Assembly (NCBI GenBank): GCA_946479785.1
Contig: CAMLHQ010000009.1
Location: 1 to 57,154, forward strand
DNA from: an uncultured Nitrospira sp.
GTDB lineage: Bacteria > Nitrospirota > Nitrospiria > Nitrospirales > Nitrospiraceae
Reading direction: 5' to 3'
DNA: 57,154 nucleotides
Part shown: positions 10,786 through 44,022 of the stretch, in pieces
Position numbering within the stretch: the first letter of the stretch is position 1
How the letters are laid out: the number at the start of each line of letters is the position of its first letter
The notes under the pieces: model-generated
Told to the model about the DNA's origin: nothing
Database searches by the model: none
Seen by the model: only the letters and a program-made list of their open reading frames with translations
Program-made: the position numbers and the translations under genes

Positions 10786-11550
10786 CTAGAACTCTCGTCG
10801 CTCAAAGATTATCCAGGCTCCGGCTAGCAGCAAGCCCGTATAGAGGAACCCGTAGGTTGTGGCCAAGGCTTGGGTCGCTATTGCTATCGGAACGCCGCTG
10901 GCGGCTTGGCCCTTTATATTTAGGGCTTCAAGATTCGGACAAAGGTAGTACAAGACGGTCATCAAGACCTTCATCGCCTGGTACGGACTCTTTTCGGCAA
11001 TGAGCTTCAGATCGCTGGTGAGGTGTCCGACAATATACATGCCGATAGCCATGCTGGCACTCAAGGTCGATGAACTGAACGTCGAAAAGAACACCGCCGT
11101 GGCCATGACAAGCAAGGCTTCTACCACCATTAACTCGATCGCCTGGAACAACGCGCCGTGAATACCAAACCCGCTGAGCCAGACGGTGATCAGAAACATT
11201 GCGAACATGATGGCGACGTTAACCACAACGATGAATACCAGCCCTAGATACTTGCCCAGAAGAAACTGCACTCTCGTGACGGGCCTCGCCAGAATCGTAT
11301 AGATGGTCCGCCGTTCGATCTCTTTTGAAACGAGACCAATCCCCACGAACACCGCCACGATGACTGCGACAAGGTTAATGGCGGCTAAGCCAAGATCGTT
11401 GACAATTCTGGCCTGCTCTCCAAGCGTCAGAGTCCCCAGCAGCACGGAAGCTCCGATCAGGAGGACGGCAAAAAATACTATGTTGTACAGAATCTTATCC
11501 CGAATTGTTTCTCGGAACGTATTTCCGGCGACCACAAAAACGCTTTGCAT
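10786..11550 (-). CDS. ABC-2 type permease, candidate PilI-like pilus assembly factor
   Basis: From the ATG at 11550 the protein has 254 residues and about six membrane segments (for example ILYNIVFFAVLLIGASVLLG near the N-terminus and a hydrophobic C-terminal helix ending in ERREF). An internal IERRTIYTILARPVTRVQFL segment is the conserved coupling-helix region of NosY/Gld-type ABC-2 permeases. A frame extends to 11766 but lies within the ATPase gene. It follows the ATPase by 1 bp. The ATPase-permease pair behind a TPR protein and a pilin gene is the arrangement of pilG-pilH-pilI of Myxococcus xanthus, where the transporter is needed for type IV pilus assembly; the assignment is by context. 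Confidence 0.82.
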   Translation of the reverse strand: MQSVFVVAGNTFRETIRDKILYNIVFFAVLLIGASVLLGTLTLGEQARIVNDLGLAAINLVAVIVAVFVGIGLVSKEIERRTIYTILARPVTRVQFLLGKYLGLVFIVVVNVAIMFAMFLITVWLSGFGIHGALFQAIELMVVEALLVMATAVFFSTFSSSTLSASMAIGMYIVGHLTSDLKLIAEKSPYQAMKVLMTVLYYLCPNLEALNIKGQAASGVPIAIATQALATTYGFLYTGLLLAGAWIIFERREF

Positions 11551-11551
11551 C

Positions 11552-12484
11552 TCACCTCCGACACATACTCTGTTCGACAAATATTTCCTCGAGCGACCCT
11601 TTGTGCGGCAGAACCGACACGAGCTTCCCCCCCGCCTCACGTATCGCCGACAGCGTGTCTTCCAGGACATCTTGTCCAGGAAGAACGATGAGACATCGAT
11701 TTCCTCTCTGTAATACTCGAAGGGCATGGCGCTTAATGAGCTCGATGTCGTCACCCACCACGCCATCGCAGACGACTTCGACTGATTGCGTAATATGTTC
11801 GCTCACCAAGTCTTCGACGCGCCCCACTGCAAAGACCCTTCCTTTTGCAAGAATTCCCACTCTGTCACAGATCATTTCGACATCGGACAAAATATGGGAA
11901 CTGAAAAATACCGTCTTGCCTCGATCTCGAAGACTCAGGATCAGATCCCTCACCTCTTTGCGTCCCATTGGGTCAAGTCCGGACATAGGCTCATCGAGGA
12001 TGACGAGTTCGGGATCGTGGATCATCGCTTGGGCCAGTCCGATCCTTTGCAGCATCCCTTTTGAGAACCTCCGCAGCTGTCGATGACGAGCCTCCTCAAG
12101 CCCGACTCGCCGCAGCAATTCCGGAACTCTCTCTCGTACGGTCGCCAGGGAAAGTTTGGCGAGCTTCCCATAAAATGTTAGAAACTCCTCCGCCGTGAGG
12201 TAATCGTAGAAGTAGGGAGATTCGGGGAGATAGCCGATGCGCGCATGGCGCTCCACTTCACCGGCTGGTGCTCCCAACACTTCGACAGATCCACTGGTGC
12301 CTCTCAGGAGCCCAAGCAAGATCTTCATCGTGGTCGTTTTTCCGGCACCGTTGTGCCCCAAGAATCCAAAGATCTCTCCCTGCCGAACAGTCAATGAGAC
12401 GTCGGTGAGTACGGTCGTCGCTTCCTGCCACGGCCACATCGGCCTGAAGGTCTTGCTTAAGCGATCAATTGTGATGGCATCCAT
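11552..12484 (-). CDS. ABC transporter ATPase, candidate PilH-like
   Basis: A 310-residue single-domain ABC ATPase: Walker A GHNGAGKTT at residues 43-51, Q-loop region IGYLPESPYFYDYLTAEEFL, signature RFSKGMLQRIGLAQAM, Walker B LVILDEPMSGLDP and switch histidine in FFSSHILSDVE. The roughly 80 C-terminal residues form the small regulatory extension common in DrrA/NosF-type exporters. The next gene is its permease partner. Genes upstream (TPR protein, Wzy_C protein, pilA) suggest a role in pilus biogenesis like PilH of Myxococcus; generic exporters such as GldA or NosF look similar, so the specific role is inferred. Confidence 0.9.
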   Translation of the reverse strand: MDAITIDRLSKTFRPMWPWQEATTVLTDVSLTVRQGEIFGFLGHNGAGKTTTMKILLGLLRGTSGSVEVLGAPAGEVERHARIGYLPESPYFYDYLTAEEFLTFYGKLAKLSLATVRERVPELLRRVGLEEARHRQLRRFSKGMLQRIGLAQAMIHDPELVILDEPMSGLDPMGRKEVRDLILSLRDRGKTVFFSSHILSDVEMICDRVGILAKGRVFAVGRVEDLVSEHITQSVEVVCDGVVGDDIELIKRHALRVLQRGNRCLIVLPGQDVLEDTLSAIREAGGKLVSVLPHKGSLEEIFVEQSMCRR

Positions 12485-12511
12485 ATTTCGTCCCCTCGTT
12501 CAGCGACGTGT

Positions 12512-13417
12512 TCATTTGGGTGATTGGACGTGGCTTCTCGCCCATCGTCGAGGCTGTTTTCGCTCCTCGACTTCGCTGCTTCTCACCTTGCCGCTCACCG
12601 CATCATAGAGATAGTGCCCGCCGAATGGTTCGACAGGCAATGACGGCAACAAACCCGGACGAACCAACTCTTCTAGCCGAGACGGCCGCCGAGCGTATTC
12701 AGCCTGGTACTGACCGATCGCTTGCTCGAGAATCTGAAGATCGCGCTCGACGATGGTTTCCTTCAGGCGCTGCTCCAAGAGCAATCGCACATTCTCATCT
12801 GTTGTCTCTTCATACACGTTCGCAAGAAGTTCCACAGCCTGTTGAGGCGCCCTTGCCGACACCAGAAGCCTCGCGGCAATTCGCGGGACATTGGAGGGAG
12901 CACCAGGCAGACGTGCCGCCTTTGCCATGAACTCCGCAGCCTTCTCATCATCGACAAACTCGAAATAATGGTTGATGCCCAATAGAAACGGCAGTGTCCA
13001 CGCCTGGGGATTATGAAGCATTCCCTTCTCCAACAACTGGTTGCTCTCTTCCGGCATGGCGACCACGGTGCATAACGCGATGCCTCCAATCTCATAGGCC
13101 TTCACGAACTTCGGGTCGAGCGTGGTGACGACATCCAGGGCTCGCGCGATCCATTGACCAGCTTCTAAAGAGACCTGTCTTTCTCCCGTGACTTGAATGA
13201 CTTGAAGCCAGATGAAATCTGACGCCACTTCTCTAAAACCCAGTGTGGCAGCCTTGAGAATTTTTCCGTCCGGAAGATACATAAAGCGCTGATGCTTTGG
13301 AACAGCGGCCCCTAGCTGGTCCAGTTTTGTTTGGGCCACGCACATGGCCGCGAACAAACAGAGGGCGATTATGAAAGGCGTTGTCTGCTGCTTGGCGGAT
13401 GCCATCATGTCGATCAC
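12512..13417 (-). CDS. TPR-containing exported protein, candidate PilG-like
   Basis: The 301-residue product has an N-terminal hydrophobic helix (FIIALCLFAAMCVAQTKLD) that can be a signal anchor, then helical repeat-like sequence. A recognisable block is YLPDGKILKAATLGFREVAS DFIWLQ, found in conserved TPR proteins next to pilA/ABC genes in delta-proteobacteria and relatives. The C-terminal region includes YQAEYARRPSRLEELV and GGHYLYDAVSGKVRSS, resembling the small domain seen at the end of pseudopilin-like proteins. It lies 15 bp after the Wzy_C protein and 27 bp before the ABC ATPase. A periplasmic partner of the ABC pair (as PilG is thought to be) is a fair inference, not shown by sequence. 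Confidence 0.72.
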   Translation of the reverse strand: MIDMMASAKQQTTPFIIALCLFAAMCVAQTKLDQLGAAVPKHQRFMYLPDGKILKAATLGFREVASDFIWLQVIQVTGERQVSLEAGQWIARALDVVTTLDPKFVKAYEIGGIALCTVVAMPEESNQLLEKGMLHNPQAWTLPFLLGINHYFEFVDDEKAAEFMAKAARLPGAPSNVPRIAARLLVSARAPQQAVELLANVYEETTDENVRLLLEQRLKETIVERDLQILEQAIGQYQAEYARRPSRLEELVRPGLLPSLPVEPFGGHYLYDAVSGKVRSSEVEERKQPRRWARSHVQSPK

Positions 13418-13432
13418 GGCTTTTGCACGTAC

Positions 13433-15463
13433 TTACGGCAGTTTGGCGGATTCTACCGTCAAGAACTGTTGTTCGAGATGGCTCAAGGCTTGCCCCTGAT
13501 ACTTCAATTGAATATCGTGTACCATGGCCCGCTGCGCAGCTGCTGTTTCCGGGTGTCCCATTTCTGTGGCCAGGTCAGCCAACATCTTCCGAGCCGGGAG
13601 AAAATTTGGTTCATGCGCAATAGCGCGGGCGAGAAACGTCTGCGCCGCCATACTGTCGCCTTGTGCGCGCCGGATCTTCCCCAATTCAAGGTAACTGAAG
13701 GGAGAAAATGGGTCTACTATAACTGCCTTTTCGAACGCGCCGGCGGCTTGCGATACCAACTCATCCCGCTGTGATGCCAAGGCCGGTTGTCCGGATAACA
13801 GCAGATATACGGTCCCCAGCCGGTGCGGGAATCGCCCATCCAGCGGATTCAAAGCCATGCAAATTTTCAACTCCGTACCAGCCTGGATCAGCCAACCTGG
13901 ATCGCCTGAATGACTAAACTGATTCACATACAGACGCGCCACCGCATCGCGATGTCCCGTTGCACCAGGATCGACGAGCGTGGCACGTCGATACCATTCG
14001 AGCGCACTGCCGTCATCGCCGTTCATAAGGGCGCGGCTGCCCTGTTCCGACGCAAACCATGCCGCGGCAGGCTGGATAGACAGACACGCGAACGAGACCA
14101 CGAGGATTCCGGCCAATACCATCCTGATAGGATGATTCGAGAAGGGATGGCGCCATTCTTGTGTCTCCCCGATACCATCGAGCCGGCTCAACGTCAGCAC
14201 CAGACTTCCCAGCAGAACAAGCAGCAGCACTAAGGCCGGCTCATGGAATACGGAATCCACCCCAGCATGCACGATGATGGCCACCACGCCACCGCACATC
14301 CCGATCGCGGCTCCTCTGTCCAGCCGAGAGGCTGCCGAGGCAAGGACACGTTTCGCTTCCCGGCCCCATATGCCGAGGCCCAAGAAGAACAGCACCACTC
14401 CACCGATTCCTAGTTCCACGCCCATCTGTAAGTATTCATTGTGAGCGGACTCGGCGCGCTTGCCGTACTGAACAATGGCCTGTTCAATCGGAAAACGGTA
14501 TTGAAACGAGGTGTACTTGTAGGTCCCTAACCCCGTTCCCAACGGACGGTCGACAATCCGCTCGAGCGAGTTCTTCCATATCTCAAACCGTGTATAGGCA
14601 TAGGGGTCATACGCACCGACGTCCAGGAACCGTTGCTTCACGGGATTCGGGAATATGATTCCGCTCAGAATGAGAAATAGAAGAACAATCAAGGCAGCTT
14701 TTCCATACCGATACAAGCCGATGAACGTCACCGCCACGAGACAAGCCAGGACCGCCCCTCTCGATTGGGCCATGACCATTGCACTGAATGTTATTGCCGC
14801 CGTAAATGCCAGAAACAGTTTTCCCTTCCAACTGACATCACCCTGTTTGAGGCACAGCAGCAGCCCAAGCGCCAGCATGCACCTCGCAACTTCGTAGGTG
14901 GCAAAAAAGTTGGGATTGAAAAAGGTTCCCTTTGCCCGTGCTTCTCCCAGCCATATGTACTGTACGATTCCCAGTCCACCCTCGAACAGGCCCATAACCA
15001 GTAGAAGCATCATGAACATCTTTACATGCCTGCGCGACGTGACCCCTGCAAGTACGACTACAAAAAAAACAGAATAGGAAACCAGATTGACCGCTCCCTG
15101 GAGACTCACGTTCATATAGACGGACCAAAAGATGGACACACCGGCCAAGCCCGTGAAGGCAACCACCGGACCCAAGAGCGGCGAATCAGTGATAGTCAGG
15201 CGTTCCGCCTGCATCCCGCGAATCAGCCAGATACAAGCGACACACAAGAGGATCAATCTGATGATAGTGACAGGAAGGTACGTCGTCCCGCCTTCAATCA
15301 GGGGGGCAAATACAGTCACACCACATGTCGCGAGGCATGACCCCGATAGGGGAAAGAACGAACGGTCTAGTGGAACAGTGTGATCCTGAGAGATGTCGAT
15401 CTGGCAACTCGGTGCGCCCATAACCTTGACTGCAAGAGACAACGCTGAAACGGGACCCGCCAT
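13433..15463 (-). CDS. Wzy_C (O-antigen ligase/polymerase) membrane protein with C-terminal TPR
   Basis: The 676-residue protein has about ten to twelve membrane spans, a large periplasmic loop holding the Wzy_C signature (RAESAHNEYLQMGVELGIGG) and, after residue about 450, a soluble region with TPR units such as ALEWYRRATLVDPGATGHRD and LELGKIRRAQGDSMAAQTFL. Wzy_C enzymes include O-antigen ligases (WaaL), polymerases (Wzy) and pilin or protein O-oligosaccharyltransferases (PilO/TfpO, PglL); they use undecaprenyl-linked glycan. It starts 138 bp downstream of the pilin gene on the same strand, with a hairpin between them. The TPR tail is common in this family outside enterobacteria. Which acceptor it uses cannot be decided from sequence. 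Confidence 0.88.
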   Translation of the reverse strand: MAGPVSALSLAVKVMGAPSCQIDISQDHTVPLDRSFFPLSGSCLATCGVTVFAPLIEGGTTYLPVTIIRLILLCVACIWLIRGMQAERLTITDSPLLGPVVAFTGLAGVSIFWSVYMNVSLQGAVNLVSYSVFFVVVLAGVTSRRHVKMFMMLLLVMGLFEGGLGIVQYIWLGEARAKGTFFNPNFFATYEVARCMLALGLLLCLKQGDVSWKGKLFLAFTAAITFSAMVMAQSRGAVLACLVAVTFIGLYRYGKAALIVLLFLILSGIIFPNPVKQRFLDVGAYDPYAYTRFEIWKNSLERIVDRPLGTGLGTYKYTSFQYRFPIEQAIVQYGKRAESAHNEYLQMGVELGIGGVVLFFLGLGIWGREAKRVLASAASRLDRGAAIGMCGGVVAIIVHAGVDSVFHEPALVLLLVLLGSLVLTLSRLDGIGETQEWRHPFSNHPIRMVLAGILVVSFACLSIQPAAAWFASEQGSRALMNGDDGSALEWYRRATLVDPGATGHRDAVARLYVNQFSHSGDPGWLIQAGTELKICMALNPLDGRFPHRLGTVYLLLSGQPALASQRDELVSQAAGAFEKAVIVDPFSPFSYLELGKIRRAQGDSMAAQTFLARAIAHEPNFLPARKMLADLATEMGHPETAAAQRAMVHDIQLKYQGQALSHLEQQFLTVESAKLP

Positions 15464-15544
15464 CTGAATCTCGGCAGCATTGGGGTGATTATGAACCCTG
15501 CGTCATGGCTGTCAAGAATTACGGATATTACGCCGAAACACGAA

Positions 15545-15574
15545 GGAGAGGGACCGTGTGTACGATCCCTCCCC
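15545..15574 (-). terminator. Hairpin after the pilin gene
   Basis: A strong inverted repeat (GAGGGA at 15548-15553 pairing with TCCCTC at 15566-15571, extended by inner and outer pairs) begins 28 bp beyond the pilA stop. On the minus strand it is followed by CTTCGTGTTTCGG, so the U-tract is poor. It may attenuate transcription between the highly expressed pilin and the following Wzy_C gene, or stabilise the pilA mRNA 3' end. Confidence 0.5.
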
Positions 15575-15601
15575 TCGTGTAGAGAACCCGTGCCCGCTGT
15601 C

Positions 15602-16111
15602 TTAGCTGGACACGTCGTTCTTCGTGTTGTTCAAGACACGTTGGTCATTGATATACCAATCATCGCAGGTCACGTCCTGATCGATGTTCCCCGATGCGCC
15701 GGCCGTAAAGCCGGTGGGTGACGCCTGGACACTCCAGTTACCGCTCGTCGTGGGCACTGCCGTACAGACGGTTGGCGCCACGATCGACGCCGGAAGCGGA
15801 ACGTTTGTTGGCGTGCCTGGCGCGGCGAGGCCCGTTGCGTAATAGTAGGTGTATCGAGGTGTTCCAGACGGCTGCCAACCAATGTCGCCAATGGCGGGAG
15901 CAAGGAAGGTCGTAGCGGGCTGTTCAGCCGCATACGACACGGCCGAGGTGAAGATGGCTCCAAGACTAATCTTCGCTTCGGACTGTTTGGACTTCGCCTG
16001 ATAGGCGACGAAGTTCGGAATGGCGATGGCCGCCAAGATGCCGATGATCGCGACCACGATCATCAACTCAATGAGTGTAAAACCTTTTTGCTCTTTCCAC
16101 TGCTTACACAT
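15602..16111 (-). CDS. pilA: Type IV pilin (PilA)
   Basis: A 169-residue type IVa prepilin: short basic leader [10 protein letters not shown], then the processing site G/F and the helix [20 protein letters not shown] with the conserved Glu at +5. The prepilin peptidase PilD should cut after the glycine and methylate the phenylalanine. The C-terminal half has two cysteines (VCTAV and VTCDDW) that could form the D-region disulfide, and the chain ends in two serines. AGGAGGAGCAGCG before the ATG is a strong ribosome site, and a sigma-54-type promoter lies about 100 bp upstream. Downstream genes on the same strand are a Wzy_C protein and candidate pilus assembly genes. Major pilin versus minor pilin cannot be proven, but size, strong signals and context favour the major one. 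Confidence 0.95.
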
Positions 16112-16208
16112 CGCTGCTCCTCCTTGTTAATGGTTCTTCGACTCGCCCTTTCGTTCCCTCAGACTATGCCCAATTTCCTTCGCGTCCTCGCGTTCACGTT
16201 GACTGTGA

Positions 16209-16225
16209 AAGCAGGTTCGGTGCCG
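16209..16225 (-). promoter_or_regulatory. Sigma-54 type -24/-12 promoter of pilA
   Basis: Read on the minus strand, CGGCACCGAACCTGCTT has the invariant GG and GC dinucleotides separated by exactly 10 bp and matches the TGGCAC-N5-TTGC consensus well apart from the first base and one T. It would start transcription near 16200, leaving a leader of about 90 nt before pilA. Type IV pilin genes are classically RpoN-dependent and activated by PilR, so both the match and the position are convincing. The pilSR genes are not in the window. Confidence 0.75.
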
Positions 16226-16684: not shown

Positions 16685-19600
16685 TCACGGGAGAGACACA
16701 TGCGACTGAGGTGTGAAACTTTCAGCTAATGGCGGACCCACAAGGCTGTGCGCGACAAGCAGTTGAAACACCATGCTAGGCTGACGACCTTGAAGGATAC
16801 GTTGCTTATATTGCCCCCAGAGTTTTGCCGCCTTGTCCCCGTCGTGCTGAACAAGGGCCCCCGTCATTCCAGCCATCAGCAGGTAGCTTTGTTGATTCTC
16901 CCTTACCTCTGTTTTCATGGCCAGGAGTCGTTCTGCGATCACCACCATGTCGTCAGCTTGTCGGGCTCCGACGGCTTTCAGTAAGGAGATCCACAGTCGC
17001 TGCGCCTCATTCAATGAGGGGAAGCATGGCGATCGCTCAATTCCGTTCCAAAATCGGCCAGCCTCGGCCGCTGTCTGGAATACATTTACCTTGTCCCCCA
17101 CGTTGAAAAGCGCATCAAGCCACCGATCCGTCCGACTCGAGTCATCGCATTTGAAAAGGTGCAGCCTGATGAGGGCCAGATCCCGAAGCAAGGCAGGCGC
17201 CGGTTCGTCCCGGCCTATTGTTCCATTATTGAGAAGATATAGCTGCGCTTGCCGAGCCTGCTGCGTACCAGATGTCCTGAAGTGTTTCACATTCTGCTCC
17301 GATACGACCGCATCGAACGGAAGCGCGGTTCTTTCAATCATTTCAATCAAAGGAACCGGTGCTTTCACCATATTTACAATTTCGGACGCACTCTGCCTCA
17401 TAAACCTGCTTCGGGATGCGTTGAGGTCCAGGAAGGGGAAGTATTCTGAATTCACAGGCGTGTTGAAGGCCATGAGCAACGGGATCAGGGTGTCTCGATC
17501 GGCCACCCGCAAGAGAGCCAAGTCTTCAGCCGTTTTGATCGCGAAGGGCTCAAGCTCTTTTTTCAAAGAAGGATATTTGAAGATTTCTCCGGACGGGGCA
17601 GAAACATTCCCTCCATTGCTCGCCAGAATGAGGATATCGGAACCACCTGGAGCGCTGTACATCGCAGAACGGCTGAAGTTGTTGTTGACGGCCTGCAGCA
17701 CTGAGAAGACAAGCGGCGGGTCCATTTCGTACACTTGAAACCACTGGACGAGCACACCGCTCTCGTTCAGATGAGTTCGGATGGCCCGATAAAACTCGTC
17801 TGTAAACAGGCTGGCCACGCCGCTAACCCAAGGATTAGACGGCTCTGAGATGATAATGTCGTATTTCGAATGTCGTGTGGAAAAGAAGGTTCGCGCATCC
17901 TCGATATAGATGTGACTTCTTGGATCCGAATAGACCGCCTCGACGCGGGGACGAAAGCGCTGCGCCCCCTCAACCATGGCCGGCTCGATTTCAATCGTGT
18001 CGAGTCGTTCGATTGAGTTGTTTCCCAGCAATACATGGCTGGTCAACCCGGATCCGAAGCCGATGTTCGCGACGACCCTTGCCTTCGGATTCAGGGCCAT
18101 CGGCAGAGCGGCTGCTATGACCATCGTGTCTTCATCGGACGTGACCCGACGTCCATCCATCTGGAGTGCCGCATCTACCTTCCCGTTAGTGCGAATGCTC
18201 ATGCTGCCATCAATCAGTTTCACAATGTCAACGGTAGAGGTTTTCCCATCTTTATGAAAAGGCACCGACACGTGCTCCGATGGAAGAAGCACTCCATGGC
18301 GGTAGACCCCAGAGGCCATATGAATGGGGTTCCACTCAACGACAAAGGACGCGAAGCCGATTGAGAGAGCCACGGTTGCCACAACTCCAGCGGCCCATTC
18401 AGAAATTGGCGAGCGCCGGACATACCAGAACAGGGTCACGCCGAGTACTATATCGACAACTGCCCCGGCTGTGACGAGACCCTTGAGGCCTAGCATTGGC
18501 ATCCCAATATGCGTGGCTGCAAAGACGCCTATGATGGCACCAAGGGTATTGACAGCATACACATGTCCAACACTCTTCTCCCCATACTGATGTTGCATCA
18601 ATGCTTGCGTCAGAAGCGGCAATGTCATACCTGCGCAAAACGTGGCAGGAAGCATGAGGCCCAAGGACAAGAGGAAGCTGATCACATTGAATAGGAAATA
18701 TCCGCCACTCGTTCTCCCTAAGGAATCCATCACCGCTTGCATTGCGCCAAACAGCTGCGGATACAGCGCGATCGTACTCAAGGCGAGCAGCCCCATCACG
18801 AGTTGAATCACTCCTAAGTACCGCACCGAATCGCTAATCTCACCAATGCGCCGTTTGATCCACAAACCACCGAGGGCAAGTCCAAGAATGAATGAGCTCA
18901 ACATCACCTCGAACGAGTGTGTCGAGCTTCCCAACACCAGGTTTAACATCCGAATCCAACTAATTTCATAAATGAACGATGCCACCCCGGTAAAACAGGC
19001 TACCCCTAACAACAGCCAAGATAACGAACCTGTTTGTGAGATTGTTCTGGCGACCATTGGCCACGACTCGTTGGGTCTGGGCTCAGCCGATTTGGCTACC
19101 AGCCAGGCGATCAATGCGACCACGATATTCAGAAGCGCGGCCGTCAGAATCGCGCCTGGAAGCCCTACTTCTGCCACTAACCAGAATCCGCTCACCAACA
19201 CACCAACTGCCGCACCAAGACTGTTGGTGAAATAAAGAATCGCGACCGTTGCGCCGGAAGAACCAGGGAATCTTCGAATCAGGCTGGTGCTCATCAGGGG
19301 AAAAGTCATCCCGAGCAGGATGGACTGTGGAAGAATCAGGCACCCTGAAAGCGCCCACTTGAATAGCGTAATGGCCATCGGGCTCTCGAGCCAAGGGAAG
19401 ACGGATGAATAGGCCGTGGCGATGGCCCACACGAACGTTGCATGAAATACAAGCCCGAACAGTCCAATCGCTCCCTCTGTGATCGCATAGACTTGGAGGG
19501 CGTTACTCCATCGCTGCGAATATCTCGCGCTGAGCCACGCTCCTACGGCCAATCCTCCCATAAAAATCCCCAGGACGAGGGTTTGAGCATAGGCGGCGTG

Positions 19601-19756
19601 CCCAAGGAATAGTTTGAGATAGTGAGTCCAGATGTGTTCGTAAATCAGTCCGGAAAACCCTGAGAGGGCGAACACACAAATGAGCACTTTTCTGGCCAGG
19701 AGCTGAGATGCACTCGAATCTACGGCCGACACAGGCTCTGCAGCGGATAGCAGCAT
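16685..19756 (-). CDS. Fused multi-spanning membrane / spermidine-synthase-like protein
   Basis: A 1023-residue protein in three parts. Residues about 20-470 contain two sets of membrane helices resembling an MFS-type bundle (for example LSGFSGLIYEHIWTHYLKLF at the start). Residues about 540-740 form a spermidine-synthase-like Rossmann domain: VVANIGFGSGLTSHVLLG binds the SAM-type ligand and LDTIEIEPAMVEGAQRF is the strand-2 acidic loop. The catalytic loop reads DIIISEPSNPW, where true spermidine synthases have an aspartate (VDSSDP-like), so aminopropyl transfer is doubtful. The last 280 residues are helical. AAAGGA lies 9 bp before the ATG. Such fused proteins are common and uncharacterised; a membrane-linked transferase role is the most I can say. 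Confidence 0.85.
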   Translation of the reverse strand: MLLSAAEPVSAVDSSASQLLARKVLICVFALSGFSGLIYEHIWTHYLKLFLGHAAYAQTLVLGIFMGGLAVGAWLSARYSQRWSNALQVYAITEGAIGLFGLVFHATFVWAIATAYSSVFPWLESPMAITLFKWALSGCLILPQSILLGMTFPLMSTSLIRRFPGSSGATVAILYFTNSLGAAVGVLVSGFWLVAEVGLPGAILTAALLNIVVALIAWLVAKSAEPRPNESWPMVARTISQTGSLSWLLLGVACFTGVASFIYEISWIRMLNLVLGSSTHSFEVMLSSFILGLALGGLWIKRRIGEISDSVRYLGVIQLVMGLLALSTIALYPQLFGAMQAVMDSLGRTSGGYFLFNVISFLLSLGLMLPATFCAGMTLPLLTQALMQHQYGEKSVGHVYAVNTLGAIIGVFAATHIGMPMLGLKGLVTAGAVVDIVLGVTLFWYVRRSPISEWAAGVVATVALSIGFASFVVEWNPIHMASGVYRHGVLLPSEHVSVPFHKDGKTSTVDIVKLIDGSMSIRTNGKVDAALQMDGRRVTSDEDTMVIAAALPMALNPKARVVANIGFGSGLTSHVLLGNNSIERLDTIEIEPAMVEGAQRFRPRVEAVYSDPRSHIYIEDARTFFSTRHSKYDIIISEPSNPWVSGVASLFTDEFYRAIRTHLNESGVLVQWFQVYEMDPPLVFSVLQAVNNNFSRSAMYSAPGGSDILILASNGGNVSAPSGEIFKYPSLKKELEPFAIKTAEDLALLRVADRDTLIPLLMAFNTPVNSEYFPFLDLNASRSRFMRQSASEIVNMVKAPVPLIEMIERTALPFDAVVSEQNVKHFRTSGTQQARQAQLYLLNNGTIGRDEPAPALLRDLALIRLHLFKCDDSSRTDRWLDALFNVGDKVNVFQTAAEAGRFWNGIERSPCFPSLNEAQRLWISLLKAVGARQADDMVVIAERLLAMKTEVRENQQSYLLMAGMTGALVQHDGDKAAKLWGQYKQRILQGRQPSMVFQLLVAHSLVGPPLAESFTPQSHVSLP

Positions 19757-19825
19757 TTGAGAAGTCCTTTCAGAAGCAAATCATTTCAGTCTGTGCCTAA
19801 GCCGAAGGAAAACAAAACAATAATT

Positions 19826-19837
19826 CAGTTTTAACTG
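19826..19837 (-). terminator. Weak terminator-like palindrome after the YfhO gene
   Basis: CAGTTTTAACTG is a perfect 12-bp palindrome about 50 bp after the stop of the preceding gene; on the minus strand it is followed by AATTATTGTTTTGTTTTC, a T-rich run. A second, GC-rich hairpin (TTGCGGG...CCCGGCAA, about 19847-19869) lies just before it. The pair probably ends transcription from 22328. Confidence 0.4.
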
Positions 19838-19889
19838 GTTGGCACGTTGCGGGCGAACATCCCGGCAAGAGTCGAGATCAGCTGGCCTC

Positions 19890-22328
19890 TTAGGACGTGG
19901 CCCGCTCTCCATCCCGGCCCTTCCAAATGAGGAATATCGTGACAATAACGCCGAACAACGACAGTATCGCCCCGAGACGCAGCAACGGAGTTTCATACTC
20001 GAACAAGACATGGAAGCGTCCCGGCGGAACCCGAACGGCACGAACGAGCCCATTTGCACGAAAGATCTGAAGATCATTCCCGCCGTCAATCCTGGCCTTC
20101 CAACCTGACTCGAACGAGTCGACCAAGACCAACACAGCCGCATGCGACGTTTCGACTGCAATTCGAACCGTTTCCGGGCGATAGTCAAGAATGGTCGCTT
20201 GGCCTTCAGTCGATGGGTCAGGAAGGGGGAATGCAGGCCCTTCGACTCCCTCCACCTCTCCACTCAAGAAATCTTCCCGATCCAGAAATGAGAGAATCGC
20301 CTTCGAAGGCGAAAGCACCTCCGGCCGCTTAGAAAGGTAGGCTCGAGGCGTCCATGGAACGGGATTTCTGACCAAGGAAAGGTCGTAGTCCGGTACGGAC
20401 GCAATGAAGGAACCGGCGAACTTTTCCTCACTGAATCGCGAGGCACGACCAATGAAATATCCGACGTTGTATCGGGCAAGTGAGCGGGTACTCGCATGCC
20501 GGCCAACATATGTAAAGATGAACCTTTCGCCTGGAAGATAGCTATGCACCGACTCGATATGAAATACGGCATTGTGCTCCGTACCAAGTGCTTGCCGTCT
20601 CAGGGCGGCGGCTAATTCCTGAGGCCGCAGCGCTCGGACCACATCTGGTGACACCTGCACGGCGCGGTCCGTAATACTCAGAACACGAAAATGCCCGGGG
20701 CCTTCGACCTTGGCATCGTCTTTGATGGCCCTGGCCAAACCAGGGGAAAAAGTCCAGATCTCCGCTGACGAAGTATGGACGGCCGGAAGATTCGCCCTGG
20801 CGAGATCCAAAGTGATGAGGGCAATCACTACCACGGACGCCCATACCCTTCTTGAAGGCTGAATGTTGATCCAACCGGTAAGCGCTGCCATCCCAGCAGC
20901 TGTCGCGCTTCCGAGCAGTAAGGCTTTGGCGGTATTCCCAGCAACATGTTGGGCAAGATCTTCCGATATGTGGAACGCGTCAACGAGCCAGTGAGGTGAT
21001 GCGTCGGCGTACAACAGCACACTCAATCCAAGGCAGATCAGTGTGCTTCCACCCCACCACGCGGGAGCAATCCGACCTGCACGCAGAACATCCAGCCCAC
21101 CTCCTGCCAAGAGGGCAAGCGCGAATGACATCAAACCCATAAACTTTTCGGGATAACGAAAGGCGGACCAGAATGGAACCACCTGAACCAACCATCCGTA
21201 CAGACCACCATATTTACCAAGGGCAAGCACCAGGGCCGTGGCGGCAAGAAACGTAAAGACTAGGAGATCACGGCGATGCCATGCCCCGAAAAGAGCAAGC
21301 CCGAGGACAGGCAGGCCTATATAAAGACTTTCCGTCAAGAACCCAGGAACTTCCGCACTTCGATCTTTGCCGGAAAACAGCTCGCGAGCCATCCGTTCCT
21401 CATCGGTTGACTCCCCAATTGGTGAGAATGCCAGCGCGAACAGCCGCAATGGATGAGTGGACCACCGCATCGTTTGTTCCTGAAATACGGTTGCGTCAGA
21501 GCGGTCACTTTCGTGGAATACCACCCATGCCGGGGCGAGCTGAACCCCCGCCAGTAGAGCGGTCAATAGCGCGACAGGCACAATCTGAGGGACAGCCCGC
21601 CACCGGCTTTGCTTGGTCCTCAGAACCACCCACAGACATGCGATAAAACCATAGTAGTATCCTGTCTGGACATCGCCATTCAGGAACACACTGGCCCATA
21701 GCAGTGCCGAGACAGCCATCCATCTTTGCTTTCCAATCGTGCAGCTCTTATCCAGCACTACCAAGAAGACAGGCAACAGACAGATCGAATAGAGATACAC
21801 AACGTTCTCTGTCGTCGATGCTACATAGCCTGAACACAGAAAGGCTACGGCAGCTAGAAATGCCCCAGTTCGTGAGATACCGACGACGCGCCCGAGCACG
21901 AATGTTCCTGCTGCCCCCAAGAGACAAGCAATGAGCGTAGAGAGTCTGTAGGCTTCGGGAATGGGGAGGAACCAATACAAGGCCGTAAATGGATGAAACA
22001 TGCCGGTCATTGGAATTCCTATAAAGGGGCGGCCGAATCCTTCATAGGGAAACCACTGCGGGAGCTCTCCTGCCGATAGCCGTTCGATCATGTACTGTTT
22101 CAACGGCAGAAAAAAATGAAATGCATCTCGCTTGATCAGCACCAAACCCGGCAGCCACAGCTGTGCATACAACAGAAGGACGAGGCCACACAGCCCTATC
22201 AGGCAGTAGTAGTCTGCGCGATCAAAATCCGACTTGACGTACACTGTTTCCGGGAAGATCCCGGACGTTGAGTTGGAAGCCGGAGGTGGCTCGACAACAT
22301 TTATGCCCTTACGAAGTGGCACGGACAC
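19890..22328 (-). CDS. YfhO-like polytopic membrane protein
   Basis: 812 residues with about twelve to fourteen hydrophobic helices. The first periplasmic loop carries DAFHFFLPLKQYMIERL and GELPQWFPYEGFGRPFIG, the pattern of YfhO-type GT-C-fold proteins, which transfer sugars from polyprenyl-phosphate donors (YfhO of Bacillus glycosylates lipoteichoic acid). The C-terminus has a beta-rich block (VLVDSFESGWKARIDGG ... VRAVRVPPGRFHVLFEYETP) and a final membrane helix, both diagnostic for the family. The start is a GTG at 22328 with AAGGTG just upstream. Acceptor in this organism is unknown. It is 125 bp after the TPR lipoprotein gene on the same strand. Confidence 0.87.
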   Translation of the reverse strand: MSVPLRKGINVVEPPPASNSTSGIFPETVYVKSDFDRADYYCLIGLCGLVLLLYAQLWLPGLVLIKRDAFHFFLPLKQYMIERLSAGELPQWFPYEGFGRPFIGIPMTGMFHPFTALYWFLPIPEAYRLSTLIACLLGAAGTFVLGRVVGISRTGAFLAAVAFLCSGYVASTTENVVYLYSICLLPVFLVVLDKSCTIGKQRWMAVSALLWASVFLNGDVQTGYYYGFIACLWVVLRTKQSRWRAVPQIVPVALLTALLAGVQLAPAWVVFHESDRSDATVFQEQTMRWSTHPLRLFALAFSPIGESTDEERMARELFSGKDRSAEVPGFLTESLYIGLPVLGLALFGAWHRRDLLVFTFLAATALVLALGKYGGLYGWLVQVVPFWSAFRYPEKFMGLMSFALALLAGGGLDVLRAGRIAPAWWGGSTLICLGLSVLLYADASPHWLVDAFHISEDLAQHVAGNTAKALLLGSATAAGMAALTGWINIQPSRRVWASVVVIALITLDLARANLPAVHTSSAEIWTFSPGLARAIKDDAKVEGPGHFRVLSITDRAVQVSPDVVRALRPQELAAALRRQALGTEHNAVFHIESVHSYLPGERFIFTYVGRHASTRSLARYNVGYFIGRASRFSEEKFAGSFIASVPDYDLSLVRNPVPWTPRAYLSKRPEVLSPSKAILSFLDREDFLSGEVEGVEGPAFPLPDPSTEGQATILDYRPETVRIAVETSHAAVLVLVDSFESGWKARIDGGNDLQIFRANGLVRAVRVPPGRFHVLFEYETPLLRLGAILSLFGVIVTIFLIWKGRDGERATS

Positions 22329-22453: not shown

Positions 22454-24295
22454 TTACTGATTGACTGGAAGAGAAGATTTTTGATCGGCGACCCGTCGCT
22501 TAGCTTGCTGGATACGTTCCTCTTGCGCAGGATCTCCCATGCCCTGTTCACGGAATCGTTCCATGAGTTTGTTGTTGGAAGGATCGAGCTCGAGTGCATG
22601 GAGCCATGCCTCGCGGGCATCGGATAGGTTTTGCTGCTTGGCATAGATGTCACCAAGGTGCTCGTAGATCACCGGGTCGTCTCCCACGAGAGCTGCGGCC
22701 CGCTTGAGTTCCGCGAGTGCTTCATTGAGCATCCCTGATTTGAAAAATGCCCAGCCAAGGCTGTCCACGTAGTAGCCGTTATCCGGCTTGAGCGCGACGG
22801 CCTGTTTGGTGAGTGAGACCGCCTGGTCGATCTTAATGCCTCGATCCGCATAGCTGTATCCGAGATAATTCAGCGCATCGGCATGGTGAGGATCGAGTTT
22901 GATGGCCGTTTCCATGGCGCGCTCGACGTCGTCGAAACGGTTGAGTTTGTCATAGGCAGTTCCAAGGTTGAAATGCAGGTCGGCATTCTTGGGGTTGTAC
23001 TTAATCCCCTCTTGAAAGGCTTCCGCAGATTTGTCGAACTGTTCTTGCTGTAAGTAAGCCAACCCCTGCACAATGTGAGTTTCCGGCTGCTTAGGGTTGA
23101 GCGCGATTGCCCGCTCCAGATGCTCCGTCGCTTCAGGAAACTTCTTGAGCCGGTAGTACAGCACCCCGAGGTGGAGATGCCCTTCAAAAAACGTCGGCTC
23201 CAGTTGCACATTGAAGGTGTACGCCTCAAGAGCTTTAGGGATATCTTTCGACTCTTCGAAGATGTACCCGAGATAGTCCCTGACTTTCAGTTCTGCAGGT
23301 CGAGCTTTAAGAATCTGCGTCAGTCGCTCGATCGCGGGAGCATAGTCTTTCTGTTCTCCATGAATGAGAGCCAGACGAAGCTGGGCGTCCAGGTCGGATG
23401 GGTCCTCCGCAATCAACTCTTCCAATTCTTTTTTGGCTCCCTGATAGTCCTTGGCATCGATATACAGGCGCACGAGTTGATGCCGGATGTCACGATTTCG
23501 CGGATTGACGTTCTGCAGATATTTTTTGAGCACCCCGACGGCCCGATCCTTCTCATGCCGCGACTCGTACATGGAGGCCAGTGCCATGTAGGCCGGCTCG
23601 AAGGATGTGTTGACTCCGATGGCGCGCTCGAAGCTGGCCATCGCCTCGTCAGCTTTCCCCGACTCAAGGAAGACTCGCCCTAGATGATAATGCCCGACGG
23701 CACTATCAGGCGATCGGGCAAGCCCGGCCCGCATCGCCTCCTCCGCTTCCGCCTGGCGTTTAAGGTTCAGCAAAAGAAGACCTTTGGAGAAATACGCGTC
23801 GCCGGTTTCAGGATCCTGCTCAATGGCGCGGTTCAACACCCTCAAGGCCTTTTCTCCCTGACCTCCTCCGGCAAGAATACCGGCCATGTGTGTCATGATT
23901 CGTGCATCCTGGCTGGGGCCATCAGCCACCTCTTCTGCATATCGCAATGCGTTGGGCATGTCACCCAGCGAGAAATGCAAGGTCGCCAGCCGCGCTTTCA
24001 CGGACTGCGCCGTCGGATCGGCTTTCAATGCGGCTTGATATTCTTTGAGAGCCAACTCTGAATTTTGCGCAAGTTCGGCCTGGTACCCCAGCATAAAATG
24101 ATAAGCGGCCGAGGCATCGGTCTGGCGAGTACCCGGCGACGACTTGGCACTCTCCACAACCTTTGTCGGCTGCTCGGCTTGTTGGGGTGGCGTGGCACAA
24201 GCACCACTGAATAGAAGGAAGAAAGGCATCCCTATGCCGAGACATCGGACGAGCTGTCGGCCAACCGCAGCGCTAGACAAGCCGGGCCGTGTCAT
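22454..24295 (-). CDS. Large TPR-repeat lipoprotein
   Basis: About 613 residues from the ATG at 24295. The signal sequence ends in a lipobox (LLFSGAC), so the mature protein should be a lipid-anchored periplasmic or outer-membrane protein. The rest is a nearly continuous array of tetratricopeptide repeats, for example VGHYHLGRVFLESGKADEAM, ALEAYTFNVQLEPTFFEGHL and ADLHFNLGTAYDKLNRFDDV, roughly fourteen units, which build a protein-binding superhelix. Its size and layout recall TPR lipoproteins in exopolysaccharide or outer-membrane assembly systems, but no partner is evident beyond the adjacent YfhO-like protein. A longer frame reaches 24355, yet the signal peptide fits the shorter start. Confidence 0.88.
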   Translation of the reverse strand: MTRPGLSSAAVGRQLVRCLGIGMPFFLLFSGACATPPQQAEQPTKVVESAKSSPGTRQTDASAAYHFMLGYQAELAQNSELALKEYQAALKADPTAQSVKARLATLHFSLGDMPNALRYAEEVADGPSQDARIMTHMAGILAGGGQGEKALRVLNRAIEQDPETGDAYFSKGLLLLNLKRQAEAEEAMRAGLARSPDSAVGHYHLGRVFLESGKADEAMASFERAIGVNTSFEPAYMALASMYESRHEKDRAVGVLKKYLQNVNPRNRDIRHQLVRLYIDAKDYQGAKKELEELIAEDPSDLDAQLRLALIHGEQKDYAPAIERLTQILKARPAELKVRDYLGYIFEESKDIPKALEAYTFNVQLEPTFFEGHLHLGVLYYRLKKFPEATEHLERAIALNPKQPETHIVQGLAYLQQEQFDKSAEAFQEGIKYNPKNADLHFNLGTAYDKLNRFDDVERAMETAIKLDPHHADALNYLGYSYADRGIKIDQAVSLTKQAVALKPDNGYYVDSLGWAFFKSGMLNEALAELKRAAALVGDDPVIYEHLGDIYAKQQNLSDAREAWLHALELDPSNNKLMERFREQGMGDPAQEERIQQAKRRVADQKSSLPVNQ

Positions 24296-24386
24296 AGGAC
24301 CACCACATAATCGCCATAATCGCCCTATCCTTATGATGCCGTGAGAGGGGAACACTCAAGGATTATACGAAGCGATCGAGGCAGGG

Positions 24387-33887: not shown

Positions 33888-34949
33888 ATGGATATTTCAA
33901 AATTGCTGACGTTTTCGGCAAAAGAAGGCGCGTCGGATTGCCACATCAGCGCCGGTGAGCCTCCCATGATCCGTCTCCACGGAGATCTCAAGAAGCTCGA
34001 TCACCCGCCGCTGACGCCGGAAGAAACCCATGCGCTCGTCTACGACATGATGAGCGACGCGCAACGCAAAACCTTCGAAGAGAAGCGGGAATGCGACTTT
34101 TCGTTCGAATTGGGCGACATCGCCCGGTTTCGTGTGAACGTCTTCGTGCAGAATCGAGGACTCGGCGCCGTCTTCCGGAACATCCCCACCGAAATCATTC
34201 CGTTGGAAAAACTCGGGATGCCCCCCATCCTTCGCCAGCTCTGCGATAAGGAAAAAGGCTTGATCCTCGTGACCGGCCCGACCGGATCCGGTAAGTCCAC
34301 GACGCTCGCCGCGATGGTGGACTATTTGAACAACACCTTTGAAGGACACATCATCACGATCGAAGATCCGATCGAGTTCGTCCACAAAACAAAGAAATGC
34401 CTCGTGAATCAGCGCGAACTCGGCGTCCATACGCTGTCGTTCGCAAACGCGCTCAAGTCCGCGCTGCGTGAAGACCCCGACATCATCCTCGTTGGCGAAA
34501 TGCGGGACTTGGAAACGATCCAGCTGGCCTTGACCGCGGCTGAGACAGGTCACTTGGTCTTCGGCACCCTCCATACGTCCAGCGCACCAAAAACTATCGA
34601 CCGCATCATCGATGCCTTTCCTCCGGCTCAGCAGGCTCAAATCCGCACCCAGATCTCGGAAGCGCTGGAGGCCGTCATCACGCAAACGCTGCTCAAGAAA
34701 AAAGCCGGCGGTCGCGTCGCCGCTCTCGAAATCATGGTCGCCACCACCGCCGTTCGCAATTTGATCCGCGAAGGCAAGTTGCACCAAATCCCAGGCATCA
34801 TGCAGGCCAGCCAGAAAGACGGCATGCAGACGATGGACATGGCTTTGGTCGATTTGGCCACTCGCGGCCTAGTCACCAAGGCCGAAGCCCAATCGCGCAG
34901 TATGAATCCGAATCTGTTCGGCGGATCGGCCTTCAGCGGGGCGGCATAA
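33888..34949 (+). CDS. pilT: Type IV pilus retraction ATPase PilT
   Basis: 353 residues with the GspE/PilT layout: N-terminal PAS-like domain, then Walker A GPTGSGKST at about 130-138, Asp box TIEDPIEFVHK, Walker B LVGEMRDLETI and His box LTAAETGHLVFGTLHTSSA. The C-terminal VRNLIREGKLHQIPGIMQ matches the AIRNLIRE signature of PilT, required for retraction. GAGGAG precedes the ATG. The partner PilU follows 30 bp downstream. It acts at the cytoplasmic base of the pilus and powers retraction and twitching. Confidence 0.96.
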   Translation: MDISKLLTFSAKEGASDCHISAGEPPMIRLHGDLKKLDHPPLTPEETHALVYDMMSDAQRKTFEEKRECDFSFELGDIARFRVNVFVQNRGLGAVFRNIPTEIIPLEKLGMPPILRQLCDKEKGLILVTGPTGSGKSTTLAAMVDYLNNTFEGHIITIEDPIEFVHKTKKCLVNQRELGVHTLSFANALKSALREDPDIILVGEMRDLETIQLALTAAETGHLVFGTLHTSSAPKTIDRIIDAFPPAQQAQIRTQISEALEAVITQTLLKKKAGGRVAALEIMVATTAVRNLIREGKLHQIPGIMQASQKDGMQTMDMALVDLATRGLVTKAEAQSRSMNPNLFGGSAFSGAA

Positions 34950-34978: not shown

Positions 34979-36145
34979 ATGGATATTCGCACATTGTTGA
35001 AGGTCATGGTCGATCAGGAGGCCTCCGACATGTACCTGACAGTGGATTCGCCTCCGGTTTACCGCGTCCACGGTTCAACCCAGCCGGCTAATACTCCACC
35101 CTTTACCAACGAACAATTGGAAGCCCTGGCCCTCGCGCTCATGCGCGGCCAGCAGCGCGGCGAATTCGAAGAGAAAATGGAAATGAATCTAGCGCTGTAT
35201 TACAAGGAGCTAGGCCGCTTTCGCGTGAACATTTTCCGGCAACGGGGCAATGTCGGACTCGTATTTCGGCACATCAAAGCCGAAATCCAAACCGTGGAAG
35301 AGCTGCGCTTGCCGAGCATCATGAAAGACATCGCCATGACCAAGCGCGGTCTCGTACTGGTCGTCGGCGCTACTGGGTCCGGAAAATCCACCACATTGGC
35401 TGCGATGATTGACCATCGCAACTCGGTTCATCCCGGCCACATCGTCACAGTGGAAGATCCGATTGAGTTTGTCCACAATCACAAAAAATCCCTTATTACC
35501 CAACGAGAGGTCGGCTTCGACACGCTATCGTTTCAGAACGCCCTCAAGAACACCCTCCGGCAGGCCCCGGATGTGATCCTCATCGGCGAAGTCAGGGATA
35601 CGGAAACCATGGAAGCCGCCATCACCTTCGCCGAGACCGGCCACCTCTGTATTGGCACCCTGCACTCGAATAATGCCAACCAGGCGATCGAACGCATCAT
35701 GAACTTCTTCCCGGTCGAGCGGCATGCCCAGATCTATCTGCAACTCTCGCTCAATCTTCGCGCCATCGTGTCTCAACGGCTCATCCCTTCCACTGACGGA
35801 AAGCGCGTACCGGCCTTGGAAATCATGCTGGATACGCCGCGCATCAAGGACCTGATCAAGAAGGCCGAGGTCGACACGCTGAAGGAAGCCATGGAACAAG
35901 GCGTCGACGAAGGCTGCCAAACATTCGACCACGTGCTGTTGCAGCTCTATAAGCAAGAAAAGATTTCCTTGGAACAGGCCCTCATCAATGCAGACAGCGC
36001 CAACAACCTGCGTTTGAAAATCAAGCTGGAGGGTCTCAAGGGCGACGACGCGATCAATGTCCTCCTCGACAAAGGCCCTCATGCGACCGGCGAGAGTCCC
36101 TTCAAGATCCAAGGAGGCAATGTGACGCCGATTCGGAAGCGATGA
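34979..36145 (+). CDS. pilU: PilT-dependent retraction ATPase PilU
   Basis: 388 residues, paralogous to the preceding gene: Walker A GATGSGKST, Asp box TVEDPIEFVHN, Walker B LIGEVRDTETM and His box FAETGHLCIGTLHSNNA. It lacks the AIRNLIRE signature of PilT and instead has the PilU-type C-terminus (KEAMEQGVDEGCQTFDHVL ... ISLEQALINADSANNLRLKI). PilU assists PilT-driven retraction against load. Clearly co-transcribed with pilT, separated by 29 bp with a CGGAG ribosome site. Confidence 0.94.
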   Translation: MDIRTLLKVMVDQEASDMYLTVDSPPVYRVHGSTQPANTPPFTNEQLEALALALMRGQQRGEFEEKMEMNLALYYKELGRFRVNIFRQRGNVGLVFRHIKAEIQTVEELRLPSIMKDIAMTKRGLVLVVGATGSGKSTTLAAMIDHRNSVHPGHIVTVEDPIEFVHNHKKSLITQREVGFDTLSFQNALKNTLRQAPDVILIGEVRDTETMEAAITFAETGHLCIGTLHSNNANQAIERIMNFFPVERHAQIYLQLSLNLRAIVSQRLIPSTDGKRVPALEIMLDTPRIKDLIKKAEVDTLKEAMEQGVDEGCQTFDHVLLQLYKQEKISLEQALINADSANNLRLKIKLEGLKGDDAINVLLDKGPHATGESPFKIQGGNVTPIRKR

Positions 36146-40371: not shown

Positions 40372-42018
40372 ATGTTTGATGCTGCGTCTCGCTCGACTCC
40401 CTGGTGGCAATCCGCCGTCTTTTATCAAATTTATCCTTGGAGTTTTCAGGACTCCAATGATGATGGCATCGGCGACCTACGCGGTATCCGGTCCAGGCTG
40501 GACTATCTCCGGGACGGCACCAGTGCCTCGCTAGGGGTGGACGCGATCTGGCTGTCACCCATTTATCCTTCTCCTATGCGAGATTTCGGCTATGACGTGA
40601 CCGACTACCTCAATGTCGATCCACGGTTTGGAACGCTGACCGACTTTGACGATCTTCTGCGCGATGCCCACCATCGAGGCATCCGCGTGATCATGGATCT
40701 CGTCCTCAACCACACCTCCGATCAGCACAAGTGGTTTCTTGAGTCACGCGCCTCGCGCCACTCGCCAAAACGCGACTGGTACTGCTGGGCGGACGGTAAC
40801 ACGTTTGGGCGTCGGCCGAACAACTGGAACGCCCGCTTCGGCGGATCCTCCTGGACCTGGGATCCAGGGCGCCGGCAGTATTACCTCCATTCGTTTTTGA
40901 GGGAACAGCCTGATCTCAACTGGCAGCATCCCCCCGTGCGGGCCGCCATGTGGAACATCGTCCGGTTTTGGCTTGACCGGGGTGTCGACGGCTTTCGCCT
41001 TGACGCCATCAATTGGCTCGGCAAGGACATGCGGTGGCCGGACAACCCCTTTCGATTCGGCCTTCGCGGCTATACCAGGCAACATCACCTCTACGACCGC
41101 GATCAGGATATTGCGCACCAGATCATGCGGGAGTTGCGCCATCTCATCTCAGCCTATCCTGACGTCGTCTTGATCGGCGAAGCAGCGGCCGACACGCCGG
41201 GCGGACCCGGGTCGTTTTACGGGAATGGCGACGACGAATTGCATTTGGTGTTCGATTTTCGCTTGATGAAGTCGCCGTGGCGAGCCGACTGCTTCCGTCG
41301 GTTCCTGTCAGAACATGTGCCGGCGATTCCGAAAGGAGGCTGGCCGACGATCGTATTCAGCAATCACGATCAGCCGCGTCATATCGACCGGTACGGTGCC
41401 GGCGGCGACGCCCAGGCACGGGCGAGAGCTGCCGCGCTCTTATTGCTCACCATGCCCGGGACACCCTTTGTGTACTACGGTGAAGAGCTCGGAATGCGAA
41501 ATGGCAGGCTGCGATACCGGGATGTGCGGGATCCCTATACCAAACACTTCTGGCCCTTCCGCCCCGGACGCGATCCGGCGCGCACACCGATGCAGTGGGA
41601 TGCATCGTCCCACGCCGGCTTCACGACGAGCCGGCCCTGGCTCCCTGTCGCACCGGACTATCGGCGGCTCAATGTCGCTCAGGAGGTTGGCGATCCTCGC
41701 TCGCTCTTGTCGCTGTATCGGCAGTTGATCCAGCTCCGCCAAGTGTCCCCAGCACTTAGTCGTGGAGAGTGCCGACTCATAGAAGGAAGCCCGGGAGATT
41801 GTCTGCTCTACCAGCGGGAGGCGCGCACCGAGGAGGGCACGATCGAGAGGATGCTGGTCGCGGTGAATTTTGCGGAACAGACCTGTGAGTTCACCCTTCC
41901 ATCAAGTTCGTTACAGGGGCGTGTGCTTGTCTCGACGGATCCCAATGCCGGCGAAGCGTGGGATCCGGGTCATATACAGCTGCGTCCCAATGAGGCTTTA
42001 CTCGTGCGCCTGTCTTAA
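40372..42018 (+). CDS. GH13 alpha-glucosidase / glucanotransferase-type enzyme
   Basis: About 548 residues from the ATG at 40372 (a TTG at 40333 is possible). All GH13 regions are present: [16 protein letters not shown] (region I), [12 protein letters not shown] with the nucleophile Asp (II), [13 protein letters not shown] with the acid/base Glu (III) and [11 protein letters not shown] (IV). [19 protein letters not shown] at the N-terminus and RTPMQWDAS place it with oligo-1,6-glucosidase, alpha-glucosidase and trehalose/sucrose hydrolases. No signal peptide is seen, so it is cytoplasmic and may release glucose from maltose, trehalose or glucan. It is convergent with glgB; their stop codons overlap in TTAA. 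It differs from the TreS of this window, so it is not a duplicate. Confidence 0.9.
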
Positions 42019-43955: not shown

Positions 43956-44022
43956 AGCATTACTCCATCAATACCGACCGGACCGTCGTCTTTCAATCCG
44001 CTTGACTGGGAGTTCGGGGTCC

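Follow-up and report, generated by a model that had tools for sequence, protein, structure and literature searches.

To our knowledge, the assembly of type IV pili is normally described without any ATP-binding cassette (ABC) transporter. The 57,154-nt stretch of an uncultured Nitrospira sp. genome analysed here (contig CAMLHQ010000009.1; hereafter the window) carries, behind a type IV pilin gene, genes for a TPR-like protein, an ABC ATPase and an ABC-2 permease, which an earlier note on this DNA had read as the equivalents of PilG, PilH and PilI of Myxococcus xanthus. pilGHI was described in M. xanthus in 1998 and reported from other Deltaproteobacteria in 2018 (PMC6060248; this and the other published sources are cited from excerpts). 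In M. xanthus, the three genes form one operon with pilA (PMC3546991), their products (PilG-PilH-PilI, MXAN_5782-5780, TCDB 3.A.1.144.5) are named among the requirements for social (S) motility, pilus assembly and PilA export (PMC3924187), and deletion of pilGHI leaves the cells without S motility and exopolysaccharide (PMC5544727). According to a quotation in PMC6060248, Wall and Kaiser (1999) held PilGHI to be unique to Myxococcus; the excerpted text of PMC6060248 itself reports pilGHI matches in almost all bacteria that it covered, together with clusters of the Myxococcus type in, among others, Geobacter and Pelobacter. The presence of PilGHI outside Myxococcota is thus not new in itself, and what can be added to its known spread is the distribution in Nitrospirota presented below.

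A second described system of relevance is formed by the Pseudomonas pilin cassettes, in which the cognate pilin is glycosylated by TfpO and a terminator stands behind the pilin gene (PMC11841053, as excerpted). Among the papers listed in searches of the open-licence literature, we saw no description of PilGHI in Nitrospirota or of the Wzy_C insertion reported here, and the main text of PMC6060248 contains no word beginning with 'nitrospir'. One paper matching both 'Nitrospira' and 'PilH' (PMC7820017) deals, in its excerpted part, with community genes PilG-PilJ in biofilm formation, which are most likely unrelated chemosensory genes.

The pilA-linked trio and its counterparts in M. xanthus

With a probability of roughly 0.75, the trio in the window represents a genuine PilGHI module serving a type IVa pilus of the Nitrospira type, and a gene for a Wzy_C/TPR protein is inserted between pilA and pilG. 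The five genes form an uninterrupted run on the minus strand (pilA, the Wzy_C/TPR gene, the TPR-like gene, the ABC ATPase and the ABC-2 permease) with intergenic gaps of 138, 15, 27 and 1 bp, and Pfam bears out the domains named in the earlier note for all but the TPR-like gene. When a degenerate pilin-start pattern was scanned over a collection of species genomes, it retrieved 37 stretches (from M. xanthus, other Myxococcaceae, Nitrospira and Deltaproteobacteria metagenome-assembled genomes, MAGs), 17 of which contain homologues of the ATPase, the permease and the TPR protein together; many of the others stop near pilA. The order in M. xanthus strain AM003 is pilA, PilG, PilH, PilI, followed by a gene that we take to be of the PilD type, with which its position and sequence agree.

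Reciprocal best hits, a check that the earlier note had asked for, support the equivalence for all three proteins. In a search of ten genomes, the window PilG matched the pilA-linked gene of M. xanthus with 79.1 bits (runner-up 29.3), and the linked gene was its sole strong match per genome, with G006 and G010 additionally carrying another, complete or partial, PilG. Conversely, among the six genomes searched with M. xanthus PilG, each of the other five returned a single match, the linked gene. ABC ATPases are far more numerous, 19 to 41 per genome matching in these six genomes, and still the PilH gene of the locus ranks first both ways: the top match of the window PilH in M. xanthus is the pilA-linked gene, with 229.9 bits (next 173.7), and M. 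xanthus PilH finds the pilA-linked gene on top in all four Nitrospirota genomes (222.6-258.7 bits, next 141.3-147.9). For PilI, likewise searched in six genomes, the linked gene is the sole strong match per genome in both directions. Identities of the window proteins to those of M. xanthus amount to about 28% for PilG, 40% for PilH and 31% for PilI.

In a tree of 55 ABC ATPase rows, 28 PilG-linked PilH proteins and one ATPase from a Candidatus Manganitrophus plasmid form one group (support 85/92), apart from two NosF proteins, named from their nos-cluster neighbours, and 24 other ABC ATPases of six genomes. Omitted from this tree are five rows that were distant or on long branches (win_Wzt, L212, L240, L245 and L219), and some of its entries are almost identical or represent one and the same gene (L197 and L189). 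An earlier tree of 42 rows likewise places 13 linked PilH proteins on one side of a branch with a support of 87.

Distribution and synteny of PilGHI

Of 295 Nitrospirota genomes searched with a PilG profile, 131 yielded matches at E up to 1e-4, and 110 yielded strong ones (>80 bits), located at 112 places; the weaker matches are mostly short and fall on the C-terminal segment. PilH and PilI lie within 4 kb of PilG on the same strand at 106 of the 112 places, the other six being at contig ends, and both are found beside PilG at all 95 places away from contig ends. The predominant order is G-H-I (96 places), with H-I-G and I-G-H found at five places each, and a pilin is encoded up to 6 kb upstream of PilG at 98 places. 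The expected conservation of gene order with pilA therefore holds, the order at most of the Nitrospirota places being that of M. xanthus. PilM occurs in 110/110 genomes with PilG versus 265/295 overall (hypergeometric 3e-7, a value that ignores genome completeness and kinship).

Beyond Nitrospirota, PilG was identified in 167/193 genomes of the phylum of M. xanthus and in 38/118 genomes of a third phylum, reached through the Deltaproteobacteria MAGs. Synteny was sampled in 20 of these 38 and 20 of these 167 genomes with no distance limit; PilG, PilH and PilI occur together in 18/20 sampled loci of the third phylum and 17/20 of the Myxococcota phylum, one or two members of the trio being missing in L263, L267, L284, L293 and L299. 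Taken together, this distribution suggests that the PilGHI step of pilus building is widespread.

Two variants of this layout were observed. In four genomes of the Myxococcota phylum (L291, L292, L297 and L298), PilH lies on the strand opposite to PilG and PilI. Moreover, the Candidatus Manganitrophus plasmid CP114559.1 (L259, 4487-8995) bears a type IV pilus locus with a prepilin, the PilH-group ATPase, PilZ and pilM, which also encodes an ABC-2-like permease and a 276-aa TPR-like protein (both with Pfam matches under the cut-off); this locus is probably PilGHI in the order H-I-G.

Predicted architecture of PilG

The TPR domain attributed to the window PilG in the earlier note has no Pfam match, and a sequence search of the PDB with PilG returned nothing up to E 1; the TPR fold is seen, however, in its structure model (predicted local distance difference test, pLDDT, 88). 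PilG is modelled as a TPR protein anchored in the membrane by one helix and bearing a pseudopilin-G-like end, its TPR scaffold most likely residing in the periplasm. The C-terminal segment matches short proteins, seven of which were fetched; the three that were checked resemble T2SSG or N_methyl pilins. The 50 VIA matches displayed for PilG fall mainly on the TPR part and tell little about this segment.

The Wzy_C/TPR gene and pilin type

The Wzy_C/TPR gene does not belong to PilGHI and represents an insertion linked to the pilin type. M. xanthus has no such gene between pilA and pilG. Wzy_C lies directly upstream of PilG at 38/112 Nitrospirota places (one of which, L165, has no detected pilin) and in 4/40 loci of the other two phyla (L264, L266, L296 and L300). 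Wzy_C is also present in L075; in L295, it is located further upstream with a pilin in between, and in L267, L275 and L277 it is weaker or elsewhere. Counting the window, Wzy_C directly precedes pilG in 43 loci among those examined (Wzy+ loci). On a PilG tree of 121 rows, which leaves out fragments under 170 aa, the presence of Wzy_C requires 4 changes versus 35.6 in shuffles, and 40/43 Wzy+ rows fall into one clade (support 86). Judging from this tree, the presence of Wzy_C is an ancient trait passed on mostly by vertical descent, with a few independent cases.

The pilins follow the same division. Among loci with a usable pilin and PilH, the nearest pilin head belongs to the same Wzy class for 90/93. 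An (N/D)D(V/I) tail is found in 36/36 Wzy+ versus 7/57 Wzy-less pilins, a Cys near the C-terminus in 0/36 versus 39/57, and a terminal Ser or Thr in 18/36 versus 2/57. Two genomes, G245 and G006, hold both Wzy+ and Wzy-less modules, each with its own pilin and PilG. Glycosylation of a C-terminal serine, as in Pseudomonas TfpO, is not claimed here, since the Wzy+ loci mostly form one clade and represent few independent events, and since Wzy-less Myxococcus pilins carry the (N/D)D(V/I) tail too.

The Wzy_C/TPR protein itself retains a ligase-type His aligned in 43/43 loci. The strict ligase motif, His-[Asn/Ser/Gln]-x9-Gly-x2-[Gly/Thr/Tyr], is matched in 24/43, including the window, with one of these matches (L115) at another place. 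The structure model of the window protein has a pLDDT of 66, with low confidence in the membrane part, and the Foldseek matches displayed are to TPR or helical-repeat structures. As a candidate pilin-accessory glycan ligase, this protein may attach glycan to the adjacent pilin, a role that we put forward by analogy and rate a little short of an even chance. It resembles the Pseudomonas TfpO cassettes in that the accessory gene directly follows the pilin gene, a strong hairpin lies between them and the presence of the accessory gene tracks the pilin type, and differs from them by its long TPR tail and by a hairpin that has no clear T-run and is not called by a terminator scan. We take TfpO to belong to the Wzy_C family as well.

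Behind pilI, the window continues with a glycosyltransferase gene and Wzm/Wzt genes, where M. xanthus has the pilD-type gene. The glycosyltransferase is kept in only 10/42 Wzy+ loci and is therefore not part of the PilGHI module.

Expression signals and locus layout

Apart from the genes behind pilI, the window differs from M. xanthus in the interval from pilA to pilG, two genes on the same strand, where it has a hairpin, a sigma-70-like site and the Wzy_C/TPR gene; both share the gene order after pilA and a sigma-54-like element before it (Table 1). The sigma-54-type promoter proposed in the earlier note is not significant alone, but the site is strongly enriched across relatives, often at a similar distance from pilA. 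In the RNA following pilA, a 19-bp stem with a single bulge is predicted (-39.5 kcal/mol over 91 nt), and comparable stability at the same place (z under -1.5, simple shuffles) is seen in 36/37 Wzy+ and 44/63 Wzy-less loci, including the window and two Myxococcus loci; a role as an attenuator or 3' stabiliser is possible. The 6-kb region contains five sigma-70-like sites versus 3.4 expected, so that the site before the Wzy_C gene is a consensus match only.

Table 1. Pilus-related genes and signals in the window
Feature	Coordinates	Strand	Details
Sigma-54-like promoter element upstream of pilA	16210..16225	-	3 mismatches, not significant alone
pilA, major-type type IV pilin, 169 aa	15602..16111	-	N_methyl 8.1e-11; NF041775 Myxo PilA 106 bits, below cut-off 400
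Strong hairpin just after the pilA stop codon	15538..15580	-	z -4.48, 0/200 shuffles as stable
Sigma-70-like promoter upstream of the Wzy_C gene	15488..15515	-	11/12 consensus matches
Wzy_C (O-antigen ligase family) membrane protein with C-terminal TPR tail, 676 aa; candidate pilin-accessory glycan ligase	13433..15463	-	
pilG homologue: membrane-anchored TPR protein with T2SS-G-like C-terminal segment, 301 aa	12512..13417	-	
pilH homologue: ABC ATPase, 310 aa	11552..12484	-	
pilI homologue: ABC-2 permease, 254 aa	10786..11550	-	
PilT/PilU-family ATPase	33888..34949	+	TIGR01420, 501.6 bits, cut-off 319.1
Second PilT/PilU-family ATPase	34979..36145	+	TIGR01420, 451.7 bits, cut-off 319.1

Because the window encodes two PilT/PilU-family ATPases, the organism very likely builds a type IVa pilus, as judged from gene content. 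The G+C content of the window is 55%. Organism names accompany 5 of the 120 listed relatives of the window PilG, all of them Nitrospira or Nitrospiraceae, and the top two among the matches listed are metagenome proteins, 97% and 93% identical.

Discussion

Several observations weigh against regarding the trio as a dedicated pilus module. No upstream pilin was detected at 14/112 Nitrospirota places, and while some of these are at contig ends, L141, L143 and L148 are not. The pseudopilin-like segment has no match in 13/112 PilG proteins (one more is cut by a contig end) and is therefore not essential to function. Support for the PilH group that includes the Manganitrophus plasmid ATPase is not full, and the correlation of 0.84 between pilin and PilG distances is confounded by shared descent. 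The ABC-2 exporter superfamily is large, so that the substrate of PilHI is not readable from sequence, and we found no experiment on PilGHI in Nitrospirota in the literature. Against this background, three other explanations of the trio have to be considered.

In the first, the trio is an ordinary exporter of the NosFY, Gld or DrrAB type that handles an unrelated substrate and lies near pilA by chance. PilHI shares its domain types with such exporters; the nearest NCBIfam names for PilH are GldA (TIGR03522, 216.4 bits) and DrrA (205.1 bits), PilI is 22% identical over 194 residues to a permease that its place in a nos cluster marks as NosY, and the solved structures closest in sequence are those of ABCA lipid transporters and NosF. 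Those two NCBIfam scores, however, are far under their cut-offs of 402.6 and 312.45, PilH stands apart from NosF in the ATPase tree, and the three genes stay side by side in Nitrospirota, usually with a pilin gene next to them, and in the majority of the loci sampled from the other two phyla. The outcome that the earlier note had named as fatal to its proposal, clustering with NosFY/Gld exporters and loss of synteny, was thus not observed, with Gld judged by the GldA cut-off alone. The cut-offs and the tree largely refute a generic exporter, which we regard as highly improbable. A pilus-related explanation, in which PilHI would flip a lipid-linked glycan that Wzy_C transfers to the pilin, making the whole locus a pilin glycosylation system, draws on the recurrent placement of Wzy_C directly upstream of pilG and, in the window, on the glycosyltransferase and Wzm/Wzt genes after pilI. 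Nevertheless, M. xanthus manages without Wzy_C between pilA and pilG and yet needs PilGHI for pili, and Wzm/Wzt could already serve the window organism as glycan exporter. Because most PilGHI modules lack Wzy_C, we reject glycan flipping for the Wzy_C protein as an explanation of PilGHI and regard the locus-wide glycosylation system as improbable.

Elsewhere, pilins use the signal recognition particle (SRP)/Sec/YidC route, which speaks against the remaining explanation, namely that PilGHI exports pilin into or across the inner membrane, either in place of Sec or as an aid to it. A 254-aa ABC-2 permease would, moreover, be an unlikely channel for a folded pilin head. In favour of export, a need of PilGHI for PilA translocation or export is attributed to Wu et al. 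1998 (PMC3724824 and PMC3924187, as excerpted). On balance, we consider such a role unlikely, though it deserves to be taken seriously.

Returning to PilGHI as a pilus module, the most economical reading of its parts is ATP-driven handling of pilins before assembly. PilH and PilI would form an inner-membrane ABC machine, with PilG as its partner, contributing a one-helix membrane anchor, a periplasmic TPR scaffold and a pseudopilin-like tip. ATP hydrolysis by PilH would move PilI, which in turn would drive PilG, and PilG might hold newly inserted pilins of the adjacent pilA type and hand them over, so that the pilins arrive at the assembly platform in a usable state; in loci of the window type, the Wzy_C/TPR protein might attach glycan to the same pilin. 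We propose this hand-over mechanism tentatively, with the odds somewhat against it. Of the ABC-dependent assembly step that the earlier note envisaged for this organism, the homologous module is in place, and a need of PilGHI for pilus assembly and pilin export would be inherited from M. xanthus by homology. Doubtful for now is the broader picture of PilGHI as a widespread pilin hand-over machine in at least three phyla, where the PilG TPR scaffold, often with a pseudopilin-like tip, would hold pilin heads, each pilin type would keep its own PilGHI, and one old lineage its glycan ligase, with pilin, ABC module and modification evolving as one cassette.

The presence of strong PilG matches in more than a third of the Nitrospirota genomes, nearly always with PilH and PilI, points to a lineage-wide component and provides a large set of natural PilGHI variants for finding what the module does. 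The pairing with particular pilins, combined with the pseudopilin-like tip of PilG, offers a testable idea about the partner of PilG.

Other features of the window

Next to dnaB and hisS, the window encodes a 633-aa TPR protein (22454-24355), a homologue of which occurs upstream of the pil module in 36/42 Wzy+ and 43/80 Wzy-less loci; this protein could belong to the pilus system. Between this gene and pilA (16685-22328) lie two genes, one for a 1023-aa fusion of MFS and spermidine synthase and one for a membrane protein of the YfhO-like kind; within the fetched stretches, the fusion was found in 1/80 Wzy-less and the YfhO-like protein in 1/42 Wzy+ loci. Finally, positions 42015-52627 hold a GlgE-type alpha-glucan metabolism cluster comprising maltokinase-like, GlgE, amylase and trehalose-synthase-type glycosyltransferase genes.

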